DNA from: Sorangium cellulosum
GTDB lineage: Bacteria; Myxococcota_A; Polyangia; Polyangiales; Polyangiaceae
Direction: 5' to 3'
NCBI GenBank assembly: GCA_020720045.1
Contig: DYPH01000034.1
Coordinates: 1 to 47,107 of the forward strand
Length of the DNA: 47,107 nucleotides
Part shown: positions 7,793 through 39,964 of the stretch, piece by piece
Layout: each line of letters opens with the position of its first letter
Position numbering within the stretch: the stretch's first letter is position 1
Position numbers and translations under genes: made by a program
Notes under the pieces: generated by a model
Told to the model about the DNA's origin: nothing
Database searches by the model: none
What the model saw: the letters and a program-made list of their open reading frames with translations, nothing else

Positions 7793-8070
7793 CTGAGAAC
7801 TCCGCGCCGTCTCCCGCTTCGCGGACGGACGCGTTCGATGGCGCAGTGCGTCTTGGGTTTGCTTACCTAGCCCCTCAATTTTGTTCGCCGCGCTCGCGGC
7901 CCGTCTTCGCTCGGCGACCGCCTCTTGTCCGAGGAATCGTCCTTTTCGCGCCGATGGAATTTCGGTAAGCAAGCGGGTTCGTTTGCGCGCCGCCCCGGCG
8001 CTGCCTTCCGGCCCGCGGGCGAACCTCGCGCCGAGCACGTTCGGTGCTTCGGCTGTTTCTCAGGAGTCCC

Positions 8071-11000
8071 ATGAACCCCACGATCGACATTCTCCGCGGT
8101 GAGCTCGAACGCCACTACTCGCTCGAAGAGCTCACGAGCCTCAGCGCGTCCCTCCTCGGGCTCGACCCGAAAGCGGTCGGCGGGGAAGGGGCGAAAGCGA
8201 CCTTCGCCCGCGCCCTCGCCGAGAGCTGCTTCGCGAGCGATCGCGTGGAGGCGCTCGTCGACGTGATGGCGTTTGCGAAGAAGTCGGTCGACCCGCGCGT
8301 CTTTGAGGCGATGCAGGGGCTCGGCAAAGAGCACCTGGAACCGGGCCGAGAGATTGGGGATTTCGAGGTCAAGCGCCTCCTCGGCGAGAGCGAATTCGCC
8401 TTCGTGGCGCAGGCCCAAAAGGACGGAAAGGCCTACACGCTCCGCGTCCTCAAGCGCGCCGTCGCCGCCGATCGTCGCGCCGTCCACCGCTTCCTCACGG
8501 CGAACCGCCTCGTCGCCGCCATCGGCGCCGCCGAAGGGCTCCCGGAAGACCTGGTCGCCGGGGAAGTCGGCGATGTTGCTTACGTTGCCTACGGGCACGT
8601 CGAAGGGGAGTCGCTCGCGGCGAAGGTCCTCCGCACCGGCCCCCAGCATTTTGCCCAGGCCCACGGGCTCTTCCGCAAGATCGTCGAGCCGGTGGCCGCC
8701 CTCCACGGCGCCCACCTCGTCCACGGCGACCTCCGCCTCGATCACGTGCTCGTCGGCGTCGGCGGGAAGGTGACCCTCATCGATTTCGGCGGCGACAAGC
8801 TCCGCTCCGCCCGCTTCGGCCTCACCCGTGCGTTTGCGCCGGAAGTCATCCGTGACGTCCACGGCGCGAAGACGGAAGGGACCCGCGCCGACGTCTACGC
8901 GCTCGGCTGCATGCTCTACGAACTCCTCACCGGCAAACCGGTTTTCGAAGGGACTTCGCTGGCCGACATCGTTGCCGCCCACCTCTCGAAGGCGCCCGAG
9001 GCGCCGTCGACGAAGGCCCCCCGCGGCTTCCTCTCCGCCGACATCGACGCCTTCGTCCTTGAACTCCTCGCCAAGGATCCGGCCGCCCGTCCGAAGGATG
9101 CCGCCGCCGTCCTCGAAGGGCTCGAGGCGCTTGTCGCCGGCCGTATGGCCGCCACCGGTCAGGCGCTCTCTGCGGAGAAGGTCACCGAGCTCGTGGACGC
9201 CCTCCTCGCCGCCCCGACCGACAGCGACGCCGCCCTCGCCCTCGAGAACGCCGTCACGCAAGGGGGCGATCCGGCCACGATCGCCGACGCCTTCGCCGCC
9301 GCCGCCGAAAAGGTGGAAGGGGACGACGAAGCGGCCCGCAGCGACCACAAGAAGGGGCTCCTCTACCGCGCCGGCCGTATCTACGCCGGCCGTGGCAAGA
9401 ACAAGGAGAAGGCGGAGGCGATCTACGCCGCCATCGTCGAGCTCGACCCGACCGACGACGTCGCCGCCAACTCCCTTGAAGAAATCAAGAAGCAACTCGG
9501 CAAGTTCGACGAGGTTGTTGAGATTCTTCTTGAGCGCTCCGGCATCGCCGCCCCCGGCGAAGACCGCGCCCGGATCATGGCGGAAGTGGGCCGCCTCTTC
9601 GCCCACGAGCTCGACGACGCCGACCAGGCGCTCGTCGCCTACACGCAGGCCCTCTGCGAGGCGCCCCACATCGGCAAATACGCCGATGAAATCGAGAAGC
9701 TCGCCGGCACCAAGGCCGACGCCTGGCAGGAGACCCTCGGTTCGATCACCGAAGCGGTCAAGAACCCGGAAATCGCCAGCGCCGACCGCGTCGCGCTCCT
9801 CGGTGTCGCCGGCCGCTTCTACGAGCAGAAGCTCGGCCGCGCCGACATGGCGCTCATGGCCTACCAGGGGGTCCTCGCCAGCGAACCCTCCAATGAAATC
9901 GCCGCCGAAGCGATGACCGCCATCTACCGCCGCGCCCAGCAGTGGCCCGAGCTCCACACGGTGCTCACCCAGCGGGCCGACGTCGCCGGCGCCTCGCCGA
10001 AGGGGCGCGATCTTCGCGTGGAAGCGGCCGAAATCCTGGAAGGGAAGCTCAACGACGCCGCCAAGGCGAAGGCGACCTACCAGACGGTCCTCGCCGAGGA
10101 CCCGGGCCACGAGAAGGCGGGCGAAGCCCTCGCGCGCATCGCCGAGAAGACCGGCGATTTCGAGACGTTGGTCGCGATTCTTGAACGTCGTCTCGAGAAC
10201 GTTTCCGGCGCCGCCAAAGCCGACGCGCTCGTCCGCGTCGCCGAGGCCTACGAAGACAGCCTCAACAACCTCAACGAAGCGACCCGCCGCTTCGAGGCGG
10301 CCCTCGCCATCGACCCGAAGCACCCCTCGGCGCTGAAGGGGCTCGACCGCATCTACAACCGCCAGGGGAAGTTCACCGAGCTCCTCGAGACCCTCGATCG
10401 CCAGATCGCCGCCGCGGCGACGCCCCGCCAAAAGGTCACTCTTTTCGAGCGCATCGCCGCCCTCCACGACGAGGAGTTCCTCGACCACGCGAAGGCCGCC
10501 GAAGCGCTTGAGGAGGTCCTCGCCCTCGACTCGAACAACGACGCCGCGCTGACCGGCCTCGCCCGCCACTACCGGCGCCTCGATCGCTGGGAGAAGGTCA
10601 TCGGCGTCTACGACCGCCACCTCGCCGTCCTCGGCGACGAGCCCCGCTCGACCGATCTCCTCGTCGCGAAGGCGCGCACCCTGGCCGACCAGGTCGGCTC
10701 GCCGGAGCGCGCGATGAAGGCCTTTGAGCAGGTCCTCAGCCGCGATCCCCAGCACGCCGGCGCCCTGGAAGCGCTCGCCCATCTCCGCGAAGTGACTGGC
10801 GATGCCCACGCCGCCCTCTCGGCCATCGAGGCGCTCGCCGCCAAGGCGGAGTCGCCGCCGGCCAAGGCCGACCAGTGGATGCGCGCCGGCCGCCTCCTCG
10901 AAGCCCGCGGCGACAAAGACGGTGCGATTGAGCGCTTCAAGCTCGCCCTCGACGCAAACCCGAAGGACGTCAACGCCGCGGTCGCGCTCCGGAAGGCCTA

Positions 11001-13449
11001 CTACGAGCGCGGGGAAACCCAAGCGATCCAGGGCCTTATCGAGCGAGAGCTCGCCGGTGCCGAGAGCGAGCTCGCCAAGGCGCGCCTCCACGCGGAGCTC
11101 GCGAAGCTCTACAAGTCGGCCCTGAAGGACGACCTCAAGGCGGAAGCCTCCGCCAAGCGCGCCGTCGACCTCGACGGGACGAACGCGGAAGCGCTCCTTG
11201 TCCTTGGCGACCTCGCCTTCGACGCCGGCCGCTTCATCGAGGCGACTCGCTGGTACGAGGGGCTTGTGCACCGCCCGCAAGTCCTCGAAAACGGTGCCGG
11301 AACGGCGATGCTCGTCCGCTTCGTAGAAGCCTACGGCAAGAGCCAGCCGAAGGTCGAAGCGGCTCCGATGAGCATGTCGATCTTCTCGATGCCCTCGATC
11401 TCCGAGTCGGCGCCGCCGCCGAGCCTCGCGCCGCCGACGGCGACGAACCCGAAGCTCGCCGTTGCCCTCAAGGCGCTCCGCGAGTTCGCCCCGACCGACA
11501 TCGACGCGATCACGCGCATCGCCACCGTGCTCTTTGACCACGGCGATCCCGAGCTCGTTCACGAGATCTACGCGGAGCTGTTCGCCAAGCATTCCGATAA
11601 GTTGAAGGGCTCGGAGCGCGTCGACGCCCTCTACCACCTCGGCGAAAGCGCCCGCCGCTCGGAGCGCCTCGACGACGCGGAAAAGCCGCTCGTGGAGGCG
11701 GCCGAACTCGACCCGAAGAACGCCCGCGTCCTCCGTGCCCTCGGCAAGCTCTACGACGAGCTCGGCAAGCTCGAGCCGGCCCACGACGCCCGCAAGAAGC
11801 GCGTCGAAGCGGTCGACGGCGCCGAAAAGTTCGAAGCGCTCCTCGACCTCGCCGACTTCCAGTTCACGCGCCTCGCCGACGCCGAGCTCGCGAAGAAGAC
11901 CTACGCGCGCGCCCTCCAAGAGAAGCCTGCCGATCGCCGCCTTCTCACGAAGCTCATGCAGCTCTACTCGGAGGGGAAGGATTGGGCGAAGCTCGTCGAT
12001 GTCATTGAGAAACTCGCCGACGGCGTCGACGACAAGAAGCAGCGCGCCAAGTACATGCAGACGGCCGCGTCGCTCTCCAACGTCCAGCTCGAGGACAAGA
12101 AGCGCGCCGCCGGCTACTACGAGAAGGTCCTCGAACTCGATGGCACGAACAGCCGCGCCGCCGACGAGTTCGTCACCCTCTGCATGGAGACGAAGGCCCA
12201 CGAGACCGCCGAGCGCGTCCTCAACGACCAGCTCGATCTTGCTCAAGAATCGGCCGATCGCGAGCGCATCCGCAAGCTTCTCGACCAGGTCGGCGACCTC
12301 TACCTCAAGTTCCTGAACGAGCCGGCGATGGCCATCGACGCCTTCGAGGCGGCCCAGGCCTTCGATCCCGACGACGCGCCGCGCGCCGAGAAGCTCGCCG
12401 AACTTTACGCGAGCGACCCGGCCCAGTACCTCGACAAGGCGGTGAAATCGCAAGGGAAGCTCCTCGAAGCGAACCCGTACCGCGTCGAGAGCTACAAGCT
12501 CCTCCGCCGCCTCTACACGGAAGCGAAGCAGGCCGACCCGGCCTGGTGCCTCTGCCAGGCGCTCGGCGTCCTCAACCTCGCCGAGCCGGAAGAAGAGCGT
12601 TTCTACAAGAAACACAAGGCCGAGAGCGCCGCCACCGCCCAGGCGGTCGTTGCCGACGACGATTGGGCGCGCCTCACGCACCCCGACGCCGACCCGCTCG
12701 TGACGCGCGTCTTCACGCTCGTCCAGCCGACGATCCTCCGCACCCGCAACCAGTCGCTCGCCGAGATGGGCTACGACCAGAGCCACATGGTCGACACCGC
12801 CGCGAGCGCCTACCCGCTCGCGCAGACCCTCTACTACGCCTCTGGCGTGCTCGCGGTCGCGCCGCCGGTCCTCGAAAACACGAACGATCCCGGCGGTCTC
12901 GGCTTCCTCCACGCCACCGAGCCGGCGATCCTCTTCGGCGCCGCCGCCGCGACCATCGAAGCGACGACCCAGCAGCTCGCGTACCTTACCGGCCGCCACC
13001 TGACCTACTACCGCCCCGGCTTCTACGTGCAGAAGCTCGTCCCGACCGGCACCGGCCTCAAGGCCTGGCTCTTCGCGGCGATCAAGCTCTGCGTGCCGAA
13101 CTTCCCGGTCGCCGTCGATATCCAGGCCCAGGTCGAAGAGGCGGTCACCGCCCTTCAGAAGGACATGGCCCCCGCCCAGAAGGACCAGCTCGCCTCCACG
13201 GTCTCCAAGATCTTGAAGGAAGGCACCGCCCTCGACCTCAAGCGTTGGGTTGCCGGCATCGACCTCTCCGCCGACCGCGCCGGGTTCCTCCTCGCCCACG
13301 ACCTCGAGACCGCCTCCGAGTGCATCCGCGCCACGGAAGCCGACTCCCCGGTCACGACCAAAGAGCGCCTCAAGGAGCTCGTCCTCTTCGGCATCGGCGA
13401 AGACTACTTCGCCCTCCGCCGGAAGCTCGCGATCACCATCGAGGGGTGA
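8071..13449 (+). CDS. Giant degenerate protein kinase with long TPR array (1792 aa)
   Basis: The start at ATG 8071 is supported by AGGAG at 8062-8066. Residues about 95-345 form a protein-kinase fold: catalytic loop HGDLRLDH (D220 kept, the metal-binding Asn replaced by His), DFG at 238-240 and RADVYALGCMLYELLTGKPVF. The usual VALK Lys position reads TLRVL (R125) and the glycine loop is GESEFA, so activity is doubtful and it may be a pseudokinase. From about residue 390 to 1500 there are repeated TPR-like helical pairs (AEAIYAAIVELDP, ATRRFEAALAIDPKHPSALKGL), interrupted by a low-complexity linker at about 1100-1135 (SMSIFSMPSISESAPPPSLAPP). The last 280 residues form a separate alpha-helical globular domain. 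No signal peptide; likely cytoplasmic scaffold or signalling hub. A reading frame on the other strand covers nearly the whole gene and is a codon-bias shadow. Confidence 0.9.
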   Translation: MNPTIDILRGELERHYSLEELTSLSASLLGLDPKAVGGEGAKATFARALAESCFASDRVEALVDVMAFAKKSVDPRVFEAMQGLGKEHLEPGREIGDFEVKRLLGESEFAFVAQAQKDGKAYTLRVLKRAVAADRRAVHRFLTANRLVAAIGAAEGLPEDLVAGEVGDVAYVAYGHVEGESLAAKVLRTGPQHFAQAHGLFRKIVEPVAALHGAHLVHGDLRLDHVLVGVGGKVTLIDFGGDKLRSARFGLTRAFAPEVIRDVHGAKTEGTRADVYALGCMLYELLTGKPVFEGTSLADIVAAHLSKAPEAPSTKAPRGFLSADIDAFVLELLAKDPAARPKDAAAVLEGLEALVAGRMAATGQALSAEKVTELVDALLAAPTDSDAALALENAVTQGGDPATIADAFAAAAEKVEGDDEAARSDHKKGLLYRAGRIYAGRGKNKEKAEAIYAAIVELDPTDDVAANSLEEIKKQLGKFDEVVEILLERSGIAAPGEDRARIMAEVGRLFAHELDDADQALVAYTQALCEAPHIGKYADEIEKLAGTKADAWQETLGSITEAVKNPEIASADRVALLGVAGRFYEQKLGRADMALMAYQGVLASEPSNEIAAEAMTAIYRRAQQWPELHTVLTQRADVAGASPKGRDLRVEAAEILEGKLNDAAKAKATYQTVLAEDPGHEKAGEALARIAEKTGDFETLVAILERRLENVSGAAKADALVRVAEAYEDSLNNLNEATRRFEAALAIDPKHPSALKGLDRIYNRQGKFTELLETLDRQIAAAATPRQKVTLFERIAALHDEEFLDHAKAAEALEEVLALDSNNDAALTGLARHYRRLDRWEKVIGVYDRHLAVLGDEPRSTDLLVAKARTLADQVGSPERAMKAFEQVLSRDPQHAGALEALAHLREVTGDAHAALSAIEALAAKAESPPAKADQWMRAGRLLEARGDKDGAIERFKLALDANPKDVNAAVALRKAYYERGETQAIQGLIERELAGAESELAKARLHAELAKLYKSALKDDLKAEASAKRAVDLDGTNAEALLVLGDLAFDAGRFIEATRWYEGLVHRPQVLENGAGTAMLVRFVEAYGKSQPKVEAAPMSMSIFSMPSISESAPPPSLAPPTATNPKLAVALKALREFAPTDIDAITRIATVLFDHGDPELVHEIYAELFAKHSDKLKGSERVDALYHLGESARRSERLDDAEKPLVEAAELDPKNARVLRALGKLYDELGKLEPAHDARKKRVEAVDGAEKFEALLDLADFQFTRLADAELAKKTYARALQEKPADRRLLTKLMQLYSEGKDWAKLVDVIEKLADGVDDKKQRAKYMQTAASLSNVQLEDKKRAAGYYEKVLELDGTNSRAADEFVTLCMETKAHETAERVLNDQLDLAQESADRERIRKLLDQVGDLYLKFLNEPAMAIDAFEAAQAFDPDDAPRAEKLAELYASDPAQYLDKAVKSQGKLLEANPYRVESYKLLRRLYTEAKQADPAWCLCQALGVLNLAEPEEERFYKKHKAESAATAQAVVADDDWARLTHPDADPLVTRVFTLVQPTILRTRNQSLAEMGYDQSHMVDTAASAYPLAQTLYYASGVLAVAPPVLENTNDPGGLGFLHATEPAILFGAAAATIEATTQQLAYLTGRHLTYYRPGFYVQKLVPTGTGLKAWLFAAIKLCVPNFPVAVDIQAQVEEAVTALQKDMAPAQKDQLASTVSKILKEGTALDLKRWVAGIDLSADRAGFLLAHDLETASECIRATEADSPVTTKERLKELVLFGIGEDYFALRRKLAITIEG

Positions 13450-36835: not shown

Positions 36836-37333
36836 ATGGAAAACGGAGGGGGCGTGGTAGCTTCGCCGGCGGTGTTGCGGCTGACGGAAAAAGAACGCTA
36901 CGGAATCGTCGCCTTGGTGGACGTCGCGCTCCACGGCGAAGGTCGCGCCGTCCTGCTTCGCGAGGTCGCGGCTCGTCAGTCGATCCCGCTCCCGTTCTTG
37001 GAACGAATCGCCGGTGAACTCCGCAAGCTCGGATATTTGCAGGCAAAGCGCGGGCCCGGCGGTGGCGTGGTCCTCGCGCGCGACGCTCGGGAGGTCCGCC
37101 TCGGGGAGCTCTGCCTGGCGCTCGTCGGGCCGAAGGAGCCGGTCTTGATCGTCCCGCCTGCTCCCGAGGGCCTCCCCGGTACTTCGGCGTCGGCGGCGGT
37201 CGCGGAGACCTTTGGGCTCCTGGAGCGTTCGCTCCGTCGCCAACTCGATGGAGTCTCCATTGAAGATCTGGTCCGTGCCGCCCGACGAATCGAAGAGGCG
37301 AGCGCGCCCGCGGACGGAGATTTTGTCATTTGA
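36836..37333 (+). CDS. Rrf2-family transcriptional regulator
   Basis: An Rrf2-type winged-helix protein: LRLTEKERYGIVALVDVA, LLREVAARQSIPLPFLERIAGELRKLGYLQAKRGPGGGVVLAR, and the helical VRLGELCLALVGP. The Cys trio that binds a [2Fe-2S] cluster in IscR/NsrR is missing (one Cys only), so it may sense something else. ATG 36836 is chosen, with GTG 36818 as alternative. It is the first gene of a chain of overlapping genes; its stop overlaps the TTG start of the E1-like gene (TTGA). Probably an autoregulator of that operon. Confidence 0.85.
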   Translation: MENGGGVVASPAVLRLTEKERYGIVALVDVALHGEGRAVLLREVAARQSIPLPFLERIAGELRKLGYLQAKRGPGGGVVLARDAREVRLGELCLALVGPKEPVLIVPPAPEGLPGTSASAAVAETFGLLERSLRRQLDGVSIEDLVRAARRIEEASAPADGDFVI

Positions 37334-38061
37334 AACGGCGCATATTGCTCATTGGTGCCGGGGGACTTGGGGCTCCCGCGGCCCTCGCGCTTGCAGCCTC
37401 CGGCGCGCCGATGACGATCGTGATTGCCGATGACGATCGTGTGGAGCGGACGAACTTGCATCGCCAGATTCTCTTTACTGAGCAGGATGTTGGGCGTTCG
37501 AAAGCCGAGACGGCTGCCGCTTTTCTCCGCGAACGTTTTTCCGCGGACGTCGAGGTTCACGAAGGACGTTTTGTTCCCGAATCGGCCAGAAAGCTCCTGG
37601 ACGGGGTCTCGCTCGTTCTCGAAGGTTCCGATAATTTTCCGACCAAATTTCTTGCCGCCGACGCCTGTTTTCTTTCCGGGATTCCGATCGTCCACGGTGC
37701 CGCCCTCCGCTGGTACGGGACCGCACTTGCAGTCGCCGGCGAACGCGGTCGAGGCGCTTGTTATCGCTGTCTTTTTGAGGCGCCACCCCTCGAAGAAGCA
37801 CCCACGTGCGCCGACGCGGGCGTCATCGGGCCGGCGGTCGGTCTCGTCGGCGCCGCGCAGGCGGCCCTCGCGCTGCGCCTGCTCGAGGGCGATCGTGACG
37901 CCTTCGGAACGCTCGTGACCGTCGACGGGCGGGCGGAAATCATTCAACGAAAACGACACGTTCGGGCGCGGCGCGACTGCGTGCTTTGCGGCGAAGCTTC
38001 GGTGGCCCCTCGCCTTGCCTCCGAGGACTACCTCGGGCCGACGTGCGGCGGGGAAGCATGA
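37330..38061 (+). CDS. MoeB/ThiF-type E1-like adenylyltransferase lacking the N-terminal arm
   Basis: A 243-residue E1-like enzyme. ATP-binding RILLIGAGGLGAPAALALAASG, acidic DDDRVERTNLHRQILFTEQDVGRSKAE, catalytic-site APTCADAGVIGP (Cys equals MoeB C187), and two CxxC pairs (ACYRCLF, DCVLCGE) for structural zinc. Relative to E. coli MoeB, the first 25 residues with the RYxRQ arm are absent; the equivalent motif is found in the next gene. The enzyme would adenylate the C-terminal Gly of a small beta-grasp protein (ThiS/MoaD type); no such partner is in the window. It starts with TTG overlapping the Rrf2 stop and ends overlapping the next ATG (ATGA). Confidence 0.88.
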   Translation: MKRRILLIGAGGLGAPAALALAASGAPMTIVIADDDRVERTNLHRQILFTEQDVGRSKAETAAAFLRERFSADVEVHEGRFVPESARKLLDGVSLVLEGSDNFPTKFLAADACFLSGIPIVHGAALRWYGTALAVAGERGRGACYRCLFEAPPLEEAPTCADAGVIGPAVGLVGAAQAALALRLLEGDRDAFGTLVTVDGRAEIIQRKRHVRARRDCVLCGEASVAPRLASEDYLGPTCGGEA

Positions 38062-38447
38062 GTTCCAGACACTTGCGCCAGATGCGCGTCCCCGAGGTCG
38101 GCCACGAGGGGCAGCGCGCGATCGCCGAGGCGAAGGCGACGATCCCCGGCGACGACCTCGCGAGCGAAGTCGCGCTGCGATACCTCGCCGGTGCCGGCGT
38201 GGGGACGTTGGTCGTCGCCAGTGAACGCCTCGAAGCGCTTGGTCGCGCGATCGATAAACGTCTGATGTTTCATATAGATGCATCCCTCGCGACGGCGCCA
38301 ATTTCCGATACAGATGCTTCCATGGGCCCCGTGTCCGCCGGCTGCGCGTTTGCCCTTCGCTTCCTCGCCGACGTTGTCGTCGGTCGGCGTCGGCCCGCGA
38401 ATTTGCTGGCGGAGACGCCGGAGACCACCAAACTGGAGCGCCCTTGA
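38058..38447 (+). CDS. Miniature pseudo-E1 carrying the MoeB N-terminal arm
   Basis: 129 residues aligning with the two ends of MoeB/ThiF. The N-terminal arm SRHLRQMRVPEVGHEGQ matches the RYxRQ...GxxGQ arm whose Arg reaches into the partner's ATP site in MoeB (here Arg7). YLAGAGVGTLVVAS aligns with the helix after the P-loop, but the P-loop itself is IPGDDLAS instead of GxGGxG. MGPVSAGCAFALRFLADVV aligns with the C-terminal helix. The middle, including zinc and catalytic Cys, is deleted. It overlaps the E1-like gene by four bases, so both are made together: a non-catalytic subunit of a heterodimer is the simplest reading. The tail RPANLLAETP resembles the PANLL segment of the 75-bp repeat in gloB. 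Confidence 0.75.
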   Translation: MSSRHLRQMRVPEVGHEGQRAIAEAKATIPGDDLASEVALRYLAGAGVGTLVVASERLEALGRAIDKRLMFHIDASLATAPISDTDASMGPVSAGCAFALRFLADVVVGRRRPANLLAETPETTKLERP

Positions 38448-39964
38448 AGGCGTGGGTGTTGGCTCTTGCCGTGGCTGCCGCCCACGAACAGTCCGGCTCC
38501 GAGCGGGCTCGGATCGCCGACGCCTTGGCCGAGCGCCAGGCGACCGTCGCGTCGCCGGTTTTTTTGCAGGCTTCCGACCATGCAACCGCTTTTCCGAAGA
38601 TGGTTGCGGAATGCACAGATGTCGTCCTTCTCGCGGGGGCGAATGCCCGCTTCCGGGCCGGCGGCGAGGCGAGCCGACGCGGCCTTCTGGTCGTGCGCCA
38701 ATGCGCCAACGCCGAGCATCCGGTAGGTGCAGTGTTTCCTCTGGAAATTGAAGCACTTGGTGGTGCCGGTGACCGTGAAATCGCCCGCGAGGCCGCTGTC
38801 GGGGCCGTCGACGTTTTTGCGGTATCGGCGCGTATCGACGCCGTCAAGGACCCCCTGCAAGCGATCCTTGAGGCGCTGCTCCCCGCCCGCGCGCCGAGTC
38901 CTGGCCCCGACGTCACGAGCCTCGCCCCTCCGCTTGCGCAGCCGCTTGGTCCGCGGCTCCGGAAGGCGGCGCGGGCCTCGGAAGATGCAGGGTACACGGT
39001 TTCCGCGTCCAAGACGGTGCCGGTCGCCGTCCAGGGCACCGAGCCTGGGACGACGGAAATTGCAGTAATTCCGATGGATTTGCTGCCCGGCTGCCATCGG
39101 CTTGCGGTCCTGTTTGAGCCTCGCGCCGCCCCCCGCTACGACATCGACGCCGACGTGATCGAGCGCCTCGAACCGTCGGTCTCTGGCAGTCCCGTGCAGG
39201 GTGCACGTATTTTGGCGAGCGACAAGGGGGACGGCGCCGATGCCACCCTCGGCCTTTGCGTCGCGACACCGACCGCGATCACGATCCGCGTGCAGGGCTT
39301 CCGCAGCGTCGGGGGGACGCTCCATATCGTGCCGGCGGCGCGCCCCTTCGACGCGGCCCTCCGGACGAGCGATTTTCCTAGCGGCGGCTCCGCAGCTGCA
39401 TCCGTGCGCGCCGTTTCCTCACCGCCTTTGGCGGTTCCGGGCGGACGCGCAGCTGCAGTTCTGCGCGCCGTTTCCTCACCGCCTTTGGCGGTTCCGGGCG
39501 GACGAGCAGCTGCAGTTCTGCGCGCCGTTTCCTCACCGCCTTTGGCGGTTCCGGGCGGACGCGCAGCTGCGCTCACGGCCGCCGTGGCGACGGCGCTTCG
39601 AGCTCGTGGCGTGGCCGACCTGCATGGCGACCTTCGGGGCCTTCGCCAGGGAATTGGTGGGAGAACGGGGTTCGTGATGCCTGTCGTCCCTGGGCACTGC
39701 TACGTCGCCGCGGTGGCCGCGACCGAAGGCTCCGTCGACCGCCTTTCCCTTGCGGTAAGCGGCGAGGGCTTTGGAGCCGACGACCGCGGTGGACGCGGAA
39801 AAACCGCCGACGGGGGGCGCCCGGGCGGCGAGGACGTCGCAGCAATGGTTGCGTTCTGCACGGATAGCCACGAGGACCGAAATGTGCAAATTGCAGCTTT
39901 TGGACGAAGCGTCGAATGGACGTTCGCGCTGATCGACGTTGGTGCTGGGGGCATGGCTCGGTGA
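38444..39964 (+). CDS. Large protein with Cys-paired modules and in-frame 57-bp repeats, unknown function
   Basis: 506 residues, starting with TTG that overlaps the previous stop (TTGA). A short hydrophobic N-terminus (KAWVLALAVAAAHE) could be a weak signal. Residues about 20-150 form an unrecognised domain (VFLQASDHATAFPKMVAEC, GLLVVRQCANAEHPVGAVFPL). Two modules follow, each with a Cys near its start and another about 60-80 residues later (GCHRLAVLFEP ... GLCVATPTAITIRVQGF, and HCYVAAVAATEG ... MVAFCTDSHEDRNVQIAAFG). These resemble the four modules of the following lipoprotein. Three copies of the 57-bp repeat are inserted in frame between them, giving about 59 residues of VLRAVSSPPLAVPGGRAAA repeats. 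Membership of the E1-like operon is by overlap only; role unknown. Confidence 0.7.
   Translation: MKAWVLALAVAAAHEQSGSERARIADALAERQATVASPVFLQASDHATAFPKMVAECTDVVLLAGANARFRAGGEASRRGLLVVRQCANAEHPVGAVFPLEIEALGGAGDREIAREAAVGAVDVFAVSARIDAVKDPLQAILEALLPARAPSPGPDVTSLAPPLAQPLGPRLRKAARASEDAGYTVSASKTVPVAVQGTEPGTTEIAVIPMDLLPGCHRLAVLFEPRAAPRYDIDADVIERLEPSVSGSPVQGARILASDKGDGADATLGLCVATPTAITIRVQGFRSVGGTLHIVPAARPFDAALRTSDFPSGGSAAASVRAVSSPPLAVPGGRAAAVLRAVSSPPLAVPGGRAAAVLRAVSSPPLAVPGGRAAALTAAVATALRARGVADLHGDLRGLRQGIGGRTGFVMPVVPGHCYVAAVAATEGSVDRLSLAVSGEGFGADDRGGRGKTADGGRPGGEDVAAMVAFCTDSHEDRNVQIAAFGRSVEWTFALIDVGAGGMAR
39392..39570. repeat. Three tandem in-frame copies of the 57-bp palindromic repeat
   Basis: TTTCCTCACCGCC recurs at 39414, 39471 and 39528 (period exactly 57). 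Each unit holds the hairpin ACCGCC-TTT-GGCGGT and is bounded by GCAGCTGC palindromes. The three units are nearly identical; one carries GACGAGCAG where the others have GACGCGCAG, the form also present at the start of the window. The encoded 19-residue unit is open in the host frame. Confidence 0.92.

Follow-up and report, generated by a model that had tools for sequence, protein, structure and literature searches.

The E1-like enzymes MoeB, ThiF and Uba4 are described, in the parts of the literature available to us, as homodimers of one complete chain. For Uba4, the available portion of the report places Gly45, Arg77, Lys90 and Asp134 of one subunit and Arg18 of the second subunit in the ATP site (PMC7527816). 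The eukaryotic enzymes SAE1-UBA2, NAE1-UBA3, UBA1, UBA6 and UBA7 consist of one active and one inactive adenylation half, and the emergence of such pairs, which activate ubiquitin, SUMO and NEDD8, from a homodimeric E1 is a question usually treated in eukaryotes. In mycobacteria, a single-chain MoeZR serves both CysO and MoaD, according to the accessible sections of the work (PMC3227635), and Iyer et al. (2006) list operons of ThiS/MoaD, E1 and JAB genes, with or without a cysteine synthase, in rows 4b–4d (PMC1779556). In rows 4b and 4c the E1 is fused to a rhodanese domain, and the portion of that paper available to us mentions no split E1.

The locus considered here lies in a stretch of 47,107 nucleotides of Sorangium cellulosum (contig DYPH01000034.1, positions 1–47,107), referred to in full as the window. 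Two overlapping genes, ORF1 and ORF2, appear to encode E1-like proteins in which the arm and the ATP site, joined in one chain in MoeB, ThiF and Uba4, reside on separate gene products. We consider it likely that together they form a split, heterodimeric E1-like adenylyltransferase, each contributing one subunit; complex formation by this particular pair, adenylation, the role of Arg7 and the substrate are inferred.

The two proteins and their locus

Table 1. Features of the putative split E1-like locus, in window positions.
Feature	Position	Strand	Description
Rrf2-family transcriptional regulator	36836..37333	+	Pfam Rrf2 E 1.9e-25; start codon uncertain; first gene of apparent operon
ORF1, armless catalytic E1-like subunit (putative)	37330-38061	+	TTG start, 243 aa; Pfam ThiF, alignment with ThiF/Uba4
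P-loop GAGGLG of ORF1	37354..37371	+	residues 9-14; only 8 residues after start
ORF2, miniature pseudo-E1 (putative)	38058-38447	+	ATG start, 129 aa; arm RHLRQ, beta-alpha-beta without P-loop, C-terminal helix
Arm motif RHLRQ of ORF2 (Arg7)	38067..38081	+	aligned with Uba4 arm arginine
ATGA overlap, ORF2 start/ORF1 stop	38058..38061	+	same overlap in G072
506-aa protein without Pfam match	38444..39964	+	start overlaps ORF2 stop; homologue beside pair in G072

The Pfam ThiF profile (PF00899) matches ORF1 at E 1.9e-52 and 178.2 bits, above the cut-off of 28.1. As the match begins only at profile position 21, the N-terminal part of the protein is missing, and an N-terminal arm with RxxRQ is not found in ORF1. 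Alignment with ThiF and Uba4 locates the remaining family residues, all of which are present: Arg45, Lys58 and Asp101 complete the ATP site with the P-loop, and the zinc pairs (CxxC 144/147 and CxxC 217/220) accompany the catalytic Cys160. Across 29 homologues, of which 12 come from loci that have no CysO, these catalytic columns do not vary, and the second Cys of the last CxxC pair hardly does. The nearest proteins are ThiF (E 1.7e-33), Uba4 and MoeB, well ahead of MccB (1e-10) and TcdA (3e-7).

Membership of PF00899 is not reached by ORF2 at the cut-off, as the profile aligns only over positions 2–49, that is, the N-terminal 48 positions, at 16.2 bits; the NCBIfam MoeB model PRK08762 covers residues 3–81 with E 1.2e-8, also under its cut-off. 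The segment IPGDDLASE occupies the expected place of the P-loop, and neither a P-loop nor a counterpart of the catalytic centre was found in ORF2, so that the ATP-site residues of ORF1 are absent from its partner in the manner of an active and an inactive half. In the PDB, a profile of such mini-proteins retrieves Uba4 (E 4.5e-10), ThiF and MoeB, and on the evidence of this profile ORF2 is homologous to E1 N-termini. Counted along the same alignment, the arm arginine of the mini-proteins falls on Arg18 of Uba4; Arg14 of MoeB has the same cross-dimer role. The AlphaFold model of ORF2 contains a helix (15–24), a strand (26–30), a helix (34–46), a strand (50–54) and a long helix (89–108), with a pLDDT of 75 and a pTM of 0.62 for the chain alone, less certain than the model of the natural fusion described below. 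E1-like enzymes account for 47 of the 50 structural matches listed for this model, including the inactive subunits NAE1 and SAE1, and the matches are weak on their own (Z 4.1–8.3, rmsd 4–9).

The original prediction had assigned the P-loop, catalytic Cys and zinc pairs to the first protein, without an arm, which is confirmed by Pfam and by the ThiF/Uba4 alignment. Its description of the second protein as carrying the arm RHLRQ with Arg7 and a C-terminal helix in the absence of a P-loop is borne out by the sequence, the partial E1 match and the AlphaFold model, and the four-base overlap that it reported between the genes is an ATGA repeated in the related genome G072. Translational coupling of ORF1 and ORF2 is inferred from this overlap; TTGA overlaps of 4 bases each also join Rrf2 to ORF1 and ORF2 to the next gene. 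The Rrf2 protein falls far short of the equivalog cut-offs for IscR and CymR, and an Rrf2 gene lies upstream of the E1 genes in many relatives too. Homologues of the 506-aa protein adjoin Mec in 6 other loci (L083, L093, L101, L132, L138 and L149). By eye, a repeated stretch, RAVSSPPLAVPGGRAAA, occurs in three copies in the 506-aa protein.

Conservation, origin and natural fusion of the pair

In G072, the only other genome of the genus in our sample, ORF1 is 91% identical and ORF2 is 75% identical over residues 1–110. Beyond the genus, matches to ORF1 at E <= 1e-20 occur in 179 of 183 genomes of the same order, canonical MoeBs included. We examined 120 regions from 118 genomes together with the window (121 in all); two of these represent one canonical MoeB locus of G104 taken twice, leaving 119 armless-E1 regions, and in 109 of them a mini-protein follows the armless E1. 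A clean mini-protein profile, without the out-of-frame read of a CysO gene, again recovers 109 regions and leaves the same 12 without a match. Of the 10 armless-E1 regions that lack the mini-protein, 6 lie at contig ends (L087, L110, L113, L159 and L161 stop within 420 bases, and L174 stops with CysO near the contig end), 2 carry it on a different contig, next to CysO (L081 of G089 and L096 of G088), and in 2 none was detected. The latter come from two genomes of one genus, G180 (L160) and G181 (L176), with assemblies of 1 and 2 contigs, in which the armless E1 stands in a complete-looking Rrf2-PLP enzyme-E1-CysO-CysM-Mec operon and the rest of the genome yields only a canonical MoeB. The arm is therefore dispensable in some lineages or replaced there.

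The arm itself is well conserved. Its arginine is kept in 106 of the 109 mini-proteins (Ala, Gln and Lys in the other three) and is followed by Gln in 100/109 or His in 8/109; the GxxGQ element is nearly fixed (the following Gly in 106/109, the Gln of GQ in 103/109), whereas the position before the arginine varies freely. The arm with GxxGQ is present before the P-loop in all 30 canonical controls but in none of the 116 testable armless E1s, i.e. those with a locatable P-loop; the remaining three (L106, L110 and L118) have no arm by eye. As 97 of the 109 mini-proteins carry this motif, loss and retention are reciprocal. The possibility that an arm lies hidden upstream of a wrongly chosen ORF1 start was also considered: a loose R..R[QH] within 60 residues matches 18 of 118 regions, of which 2 are the canonical MoeB locus of G104, and the other 16 lack a following GxxGQ; we infer that they represent the preceding gene read in the wrong frame.

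Two outcomes that would have counted against the original prediction, a short protein absent or broken in most relatives and an ORF1 homologue with an arm of its own, were thus not encountered in these regions, and its statement that each protein carries what the other lacks is upheld as far as motifs can show. Overall its reading is supported; what it lacked was the inferred ancestral substrate CysO, the operon, the loss of that operon in the genus, the fusion and the longer pseudo-E1 partners.

At L157 (G024) the order is Rrf2-E1-mini-Mec; the region retains the protease but has no CysO, and Gln takes the place of the arm arginine. At L098 (G111) the mini-protein frame continues into an ORF of 539 codons with an apparent secretion signal by eye, through either a fusion or a lost stop.

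In a tree of 81 E1 domains made by a quick method, 32 canonical and 49 armless sequences are split by a branch with an SH-aLRT of 95, and this is compatible with one loss of the arm; two of the canonical rows (L237 and L251) had been mislabelled armless by motif and carry YSRH/YSRQ arms. We also inspected 11 loci of the phylum that belong to other orders or classes, chosen for short frames or strong scores. In 10 of these, the mini-protein profile marks a protein without a canonical P-loop, in ORFs of 108–249 codons and once (L300) within a longer open frame; the remaining locus, L299, encodes a canonical MoeB that has an arm. An armless E1 stands beside the marked protein in 9 of the 10, the stretch of L298 containing no E1, and CysO and Mec are found in 9 and 8 of the 10, respectively. 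The partners at L227 and L215, of 229 and about 250 residues, have a ruined P-loop and look like intermediate stages of the pseudo-E1.

In G090 (JAFGBI010000359.1, a Polyangiaceae draft MAG), both parts are present in one ORF of ~340 residues, in the order active then inactive; UBA1 has the reverse order, its inactive half preceding the active half. The AlphaFold model of this fusion attains a pLDDT of 82 and a pTM of 0.83, with 206 of 358 residues at 90 or above in both parts and values under 50 at the N-terminus, at residues 167–178 and in the linker region 231–264. The underlying alignment was shallow and composed by hand from 3 ORF1-like and 13 ORF2-like rows, because with many ORF1 rows MAFFT misplaced the mini-proteins onto the N-terminal half of the fusion, and AlphaFold has itself been trained on E1 structures. 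In VIA-align, ranks 1–33 are occupied by UBA7, UBA1 and UBA6, with 280–295 aligned residues, Z of 22.9–26.5 and rmsd of 2.9–3.5, whereas for MoeB and ThiF, enzymes with a single half, 197–218 residues are aligned (217 for MoeB, model residues 9–241). The difference implies that ~65–75 residues of the mini-protein sit at the place of the second half of eukaryotic E1s, with the proviso that the rows give range ends only and that either fusion half may map on either UBA1 half. Foldseek returns mostly one-half E1 chains for the fusion and so provides no test of its interface. A confident interface between the two parts is predicted for this natural fusion of a relative only, which favours the original prediction indirectly; for the separate chains of the window a pseudo-dimer is inferred from it. 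The proposed likeness to SAE1-UBA2 and NAE1-UBA3 is structurally apt at the level of models, in view of the UBA7/UBA1/UBA6 matches of the fusion and the weak NAE1/SAE1 matches of ORF2.

The CysO operon in relatives and its apparent partial loss in the genus

The commonest gene order, Rrf2-PLP enzyme-E1-CysO-miniE1-CysM-Mec, is found in 38 of the 121 regions, and 23 more lack only a detected Rrf2. Two PLP enzymes respond to the one CysM query: the downstream protein is 54–62% identical (76 regions), whereas the upstream one is only 34–41% identical, and its initial assignment as CysM was dropped in favour of ‘PLP enzyme’. Of the 183 genomes of the order, 153 contain a CysO-like match, and the Mec query matches 81 of the 121 regions at 1e-20; Pfam identifies the CysO, CysM and Mec counterparts of L215 and L253 as ThiS, PALP and Prok-JAB. 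Operons of this kind extend to further orders and to other classes of the phylum. The same gene content appears in rows 4b–4d of Iyer et al., to the extent that the source is available (PMC1779556), and a CysO-like Ubl, a cysteine synthase and a JAB protease stand beside the pair in relatives as in the mycobacterial CysO-CysM-Mec system. Such a gene set fits the synthesis of cysteine by way of a protein thiocarboxylate, and from this context we infer that the split E1 originally served to activate CysO. MoeZR has a rhodanese domain. In contrast to that enzyme, a single chain in the sources at hand, the E1 here is split, ORF1 has no rhodanese domain, and the genus of the window lacks the rest of the operon.

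In both genomes of the genus, the locus comprises Rrf2, the E1 pair and the 506-aa gene only. The CysO query has no match anywhere in either genome; in the genome of the window the Mec query has no match and no JAB protein exceeds the cut-off, and the best CysM match reaches 37% identity there; that of G072 reaches 39%, across only half of the query, compared with 54–62% in relatives. A CysO-CysM-Mec set, within one genome or one operon, is thus not found in the genus. Both genomes are draft assemblies, as are many in the sample, and absences are for that reason weaker than presences. Between the two species, dN/dS is 0.164 (0.094–0.267) for ORF1 and 0.236 (0.133–0.408) for ORF2, which indicates that both ORFs are under purifying selection. 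Since no CysO is found and the locus has neither CysM nor Mec, and yet the pair is under selection, it probably activates another carrier.

The original prediction had called for a search of the genome for an unpaired carrier. Two PF02597 proteins exceed the cut-off in the genome of the window: a MoaD, identified as such by its position beside moeA, moaC, moaE and moaA (Pfam), and a ThiS-like carrier in a frame of 69 codons, near which no thi gene was recognised by eye. These are the only candidates detected by Pfam. The other E1 proteins of this genome are a canonical rhodanese-ThiF with its own arm on C205 and, on C306, a protein of 446 aa that the ThiF profile matches in part. With CysO, evidently the substrate in relatives, undetected in both genomes, the substrate in the genus is a guess, the best being that the pair has been retargeted to the MoaD or ThiS-like carrier or to something unrecognised.

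The absence of CysO, together with kept neighbours that amount to Rrf2 and the 506-aa protein, the function of which is unknown, would also suit activation of a substrate other than a sulfur carrier, e.g. a peptide, as by MccB, or another carboxylate. We consider this unlikely, though not excluded, since ORF1 is far closer to ThiF, Uba4 and MoeB than to MccB and TcdA, and has the zinc cysteines and catalytic Cys of carrier-activating E1s. The further reading that the pair is a relic in this genus, decaying or neutral after the loss of CysO, CysM and Mec, could draw on the missing CysO in both genomes, on the missing Mec and JAB matches in that of the window (drafts, as noted) and on a locus reduced to Rrf2, the pair and the 506-aa gene. 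This appears improbable, as both ORFs are intact in two species at the dN/dS values given above, the catalytic residues are kept, and the pair stands without a CysO match in the stretch in 17 of the 121 regions, so that the state is recurrent. Continued activity on another carrier remains the preferred reading.

Proposed mechanism and relation to known E1 enzymes

In the mechanism we propose, ORF1 would form the acyl-adenylate, binding for this purpose Mg-ATP and the C-terminal end of a ubiquitin-like carrier, while ORF2 would stand in for the second monomer of a MoeB-type dimer. The C-terminal helix and half-Rossmann fold of ORF2 may pack on ORF1, and its arm would place Arg7 in the ATP site of ORF1, there to hold the gamma-phosphate. 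As the arm of ORF2 would complete the site of ORF1 in place of a second monomer, one active site per pair is expected, like UBA1 or SAE1-UBA2. Ancestrally, the pair would have activated CysO, the thiocarboxylate of which would be used by CysM before Mec releases cysteine; in the genus of the window, where CysO, CysM and Mec have apparently gone from the operon and the E1 pair is kept under selection, it would most likely act on another carrier.

It is conceivable that ORF1 functions alone or as an armless homodimer, and that ORF2, having kept only an E1 surface, acts as a regulator, chaperone or adaptor and donates no arginine. The same operon without a detected mini-protein in G180 and G181 and the three mini-proteins without the arm arginine are in keeping with this proposal, to which we attach little probability in the face of the reciprocal pattern (no arm motif in 116 ORF1-type proteins, an arm arginine in 106 of 109 partners) and of the fusion predicted to form an E1-like pseudo-dimer. 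The idea that ORF2 arose by chance, or that it is a degraded remnant of a complete moeB gene, can be discarded. Its Pfam score under the curated cut-off might speak for this, but the protein recurs in 109 of 119 armless-E1 regions, its arm is conserved, it is short almost everywhere, and one genome has it as part of a fusion.

The pair shares with MoeB, ThiF and Uba4 the fold, P-loop, Arg45, Lys58, Asp101, catalytic Cys and zinc pairs on the side of ORF1, and the arm and first beta-alpha-beta unit on that of ORF2. It differs from the eukaryotic enzymes in being a bacterial pair from a sulfur-carrier operon with no sign of cysteine half-domains or a ubiquitin-fold domain, and in an inactive half cut to about 90–140 residues. 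Among the matches listed in a search limited to the open literature, titles and the beginnings of abstracts revealed no publication on a split bacterial sulfur-carrier E1, which is weak evidence of novelty. A broader reading, the chances of which we put at even, is that bacteria evolved heterodimeric E1s independently: a homodimeric CysO-type E1 would have split, its pseudo-subunit would have shrunk from ~250 to ~95 residues, to little more than an arginine-donating arm and a dimer helix, and the pair would have outlived CysO and been retargeted in the genus of the window. The apparent bacterial split has visible stages, with pseudo-E1s of ~230–250 residues, reduced forms of ~90–140 and a fusion of the halves. 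If the reading is correct, a very small partner completes an E1 active site, which would afford a clean test of the purpose of the second adenylation half, and the CysO cysteine pathway would exist in a myxobacterial form; where CysO is missing, the question arises of what role a specialised E1 has after the loss of its carrier.

Two further observations stand apart from these arguments. At L227 (1575–3452), the armless E1 and the 229-aa pseudo-E1 are separated by a TusA-family sulfurtransferase, and an adenylylsulphate kinase comes after the pseudo-E1, which suggests a split E1 in another sulfur-transfer setting. Elsewhere in the window (7867–13449), two open frames of ~1800 codons run on opposite strands across the same stretch.
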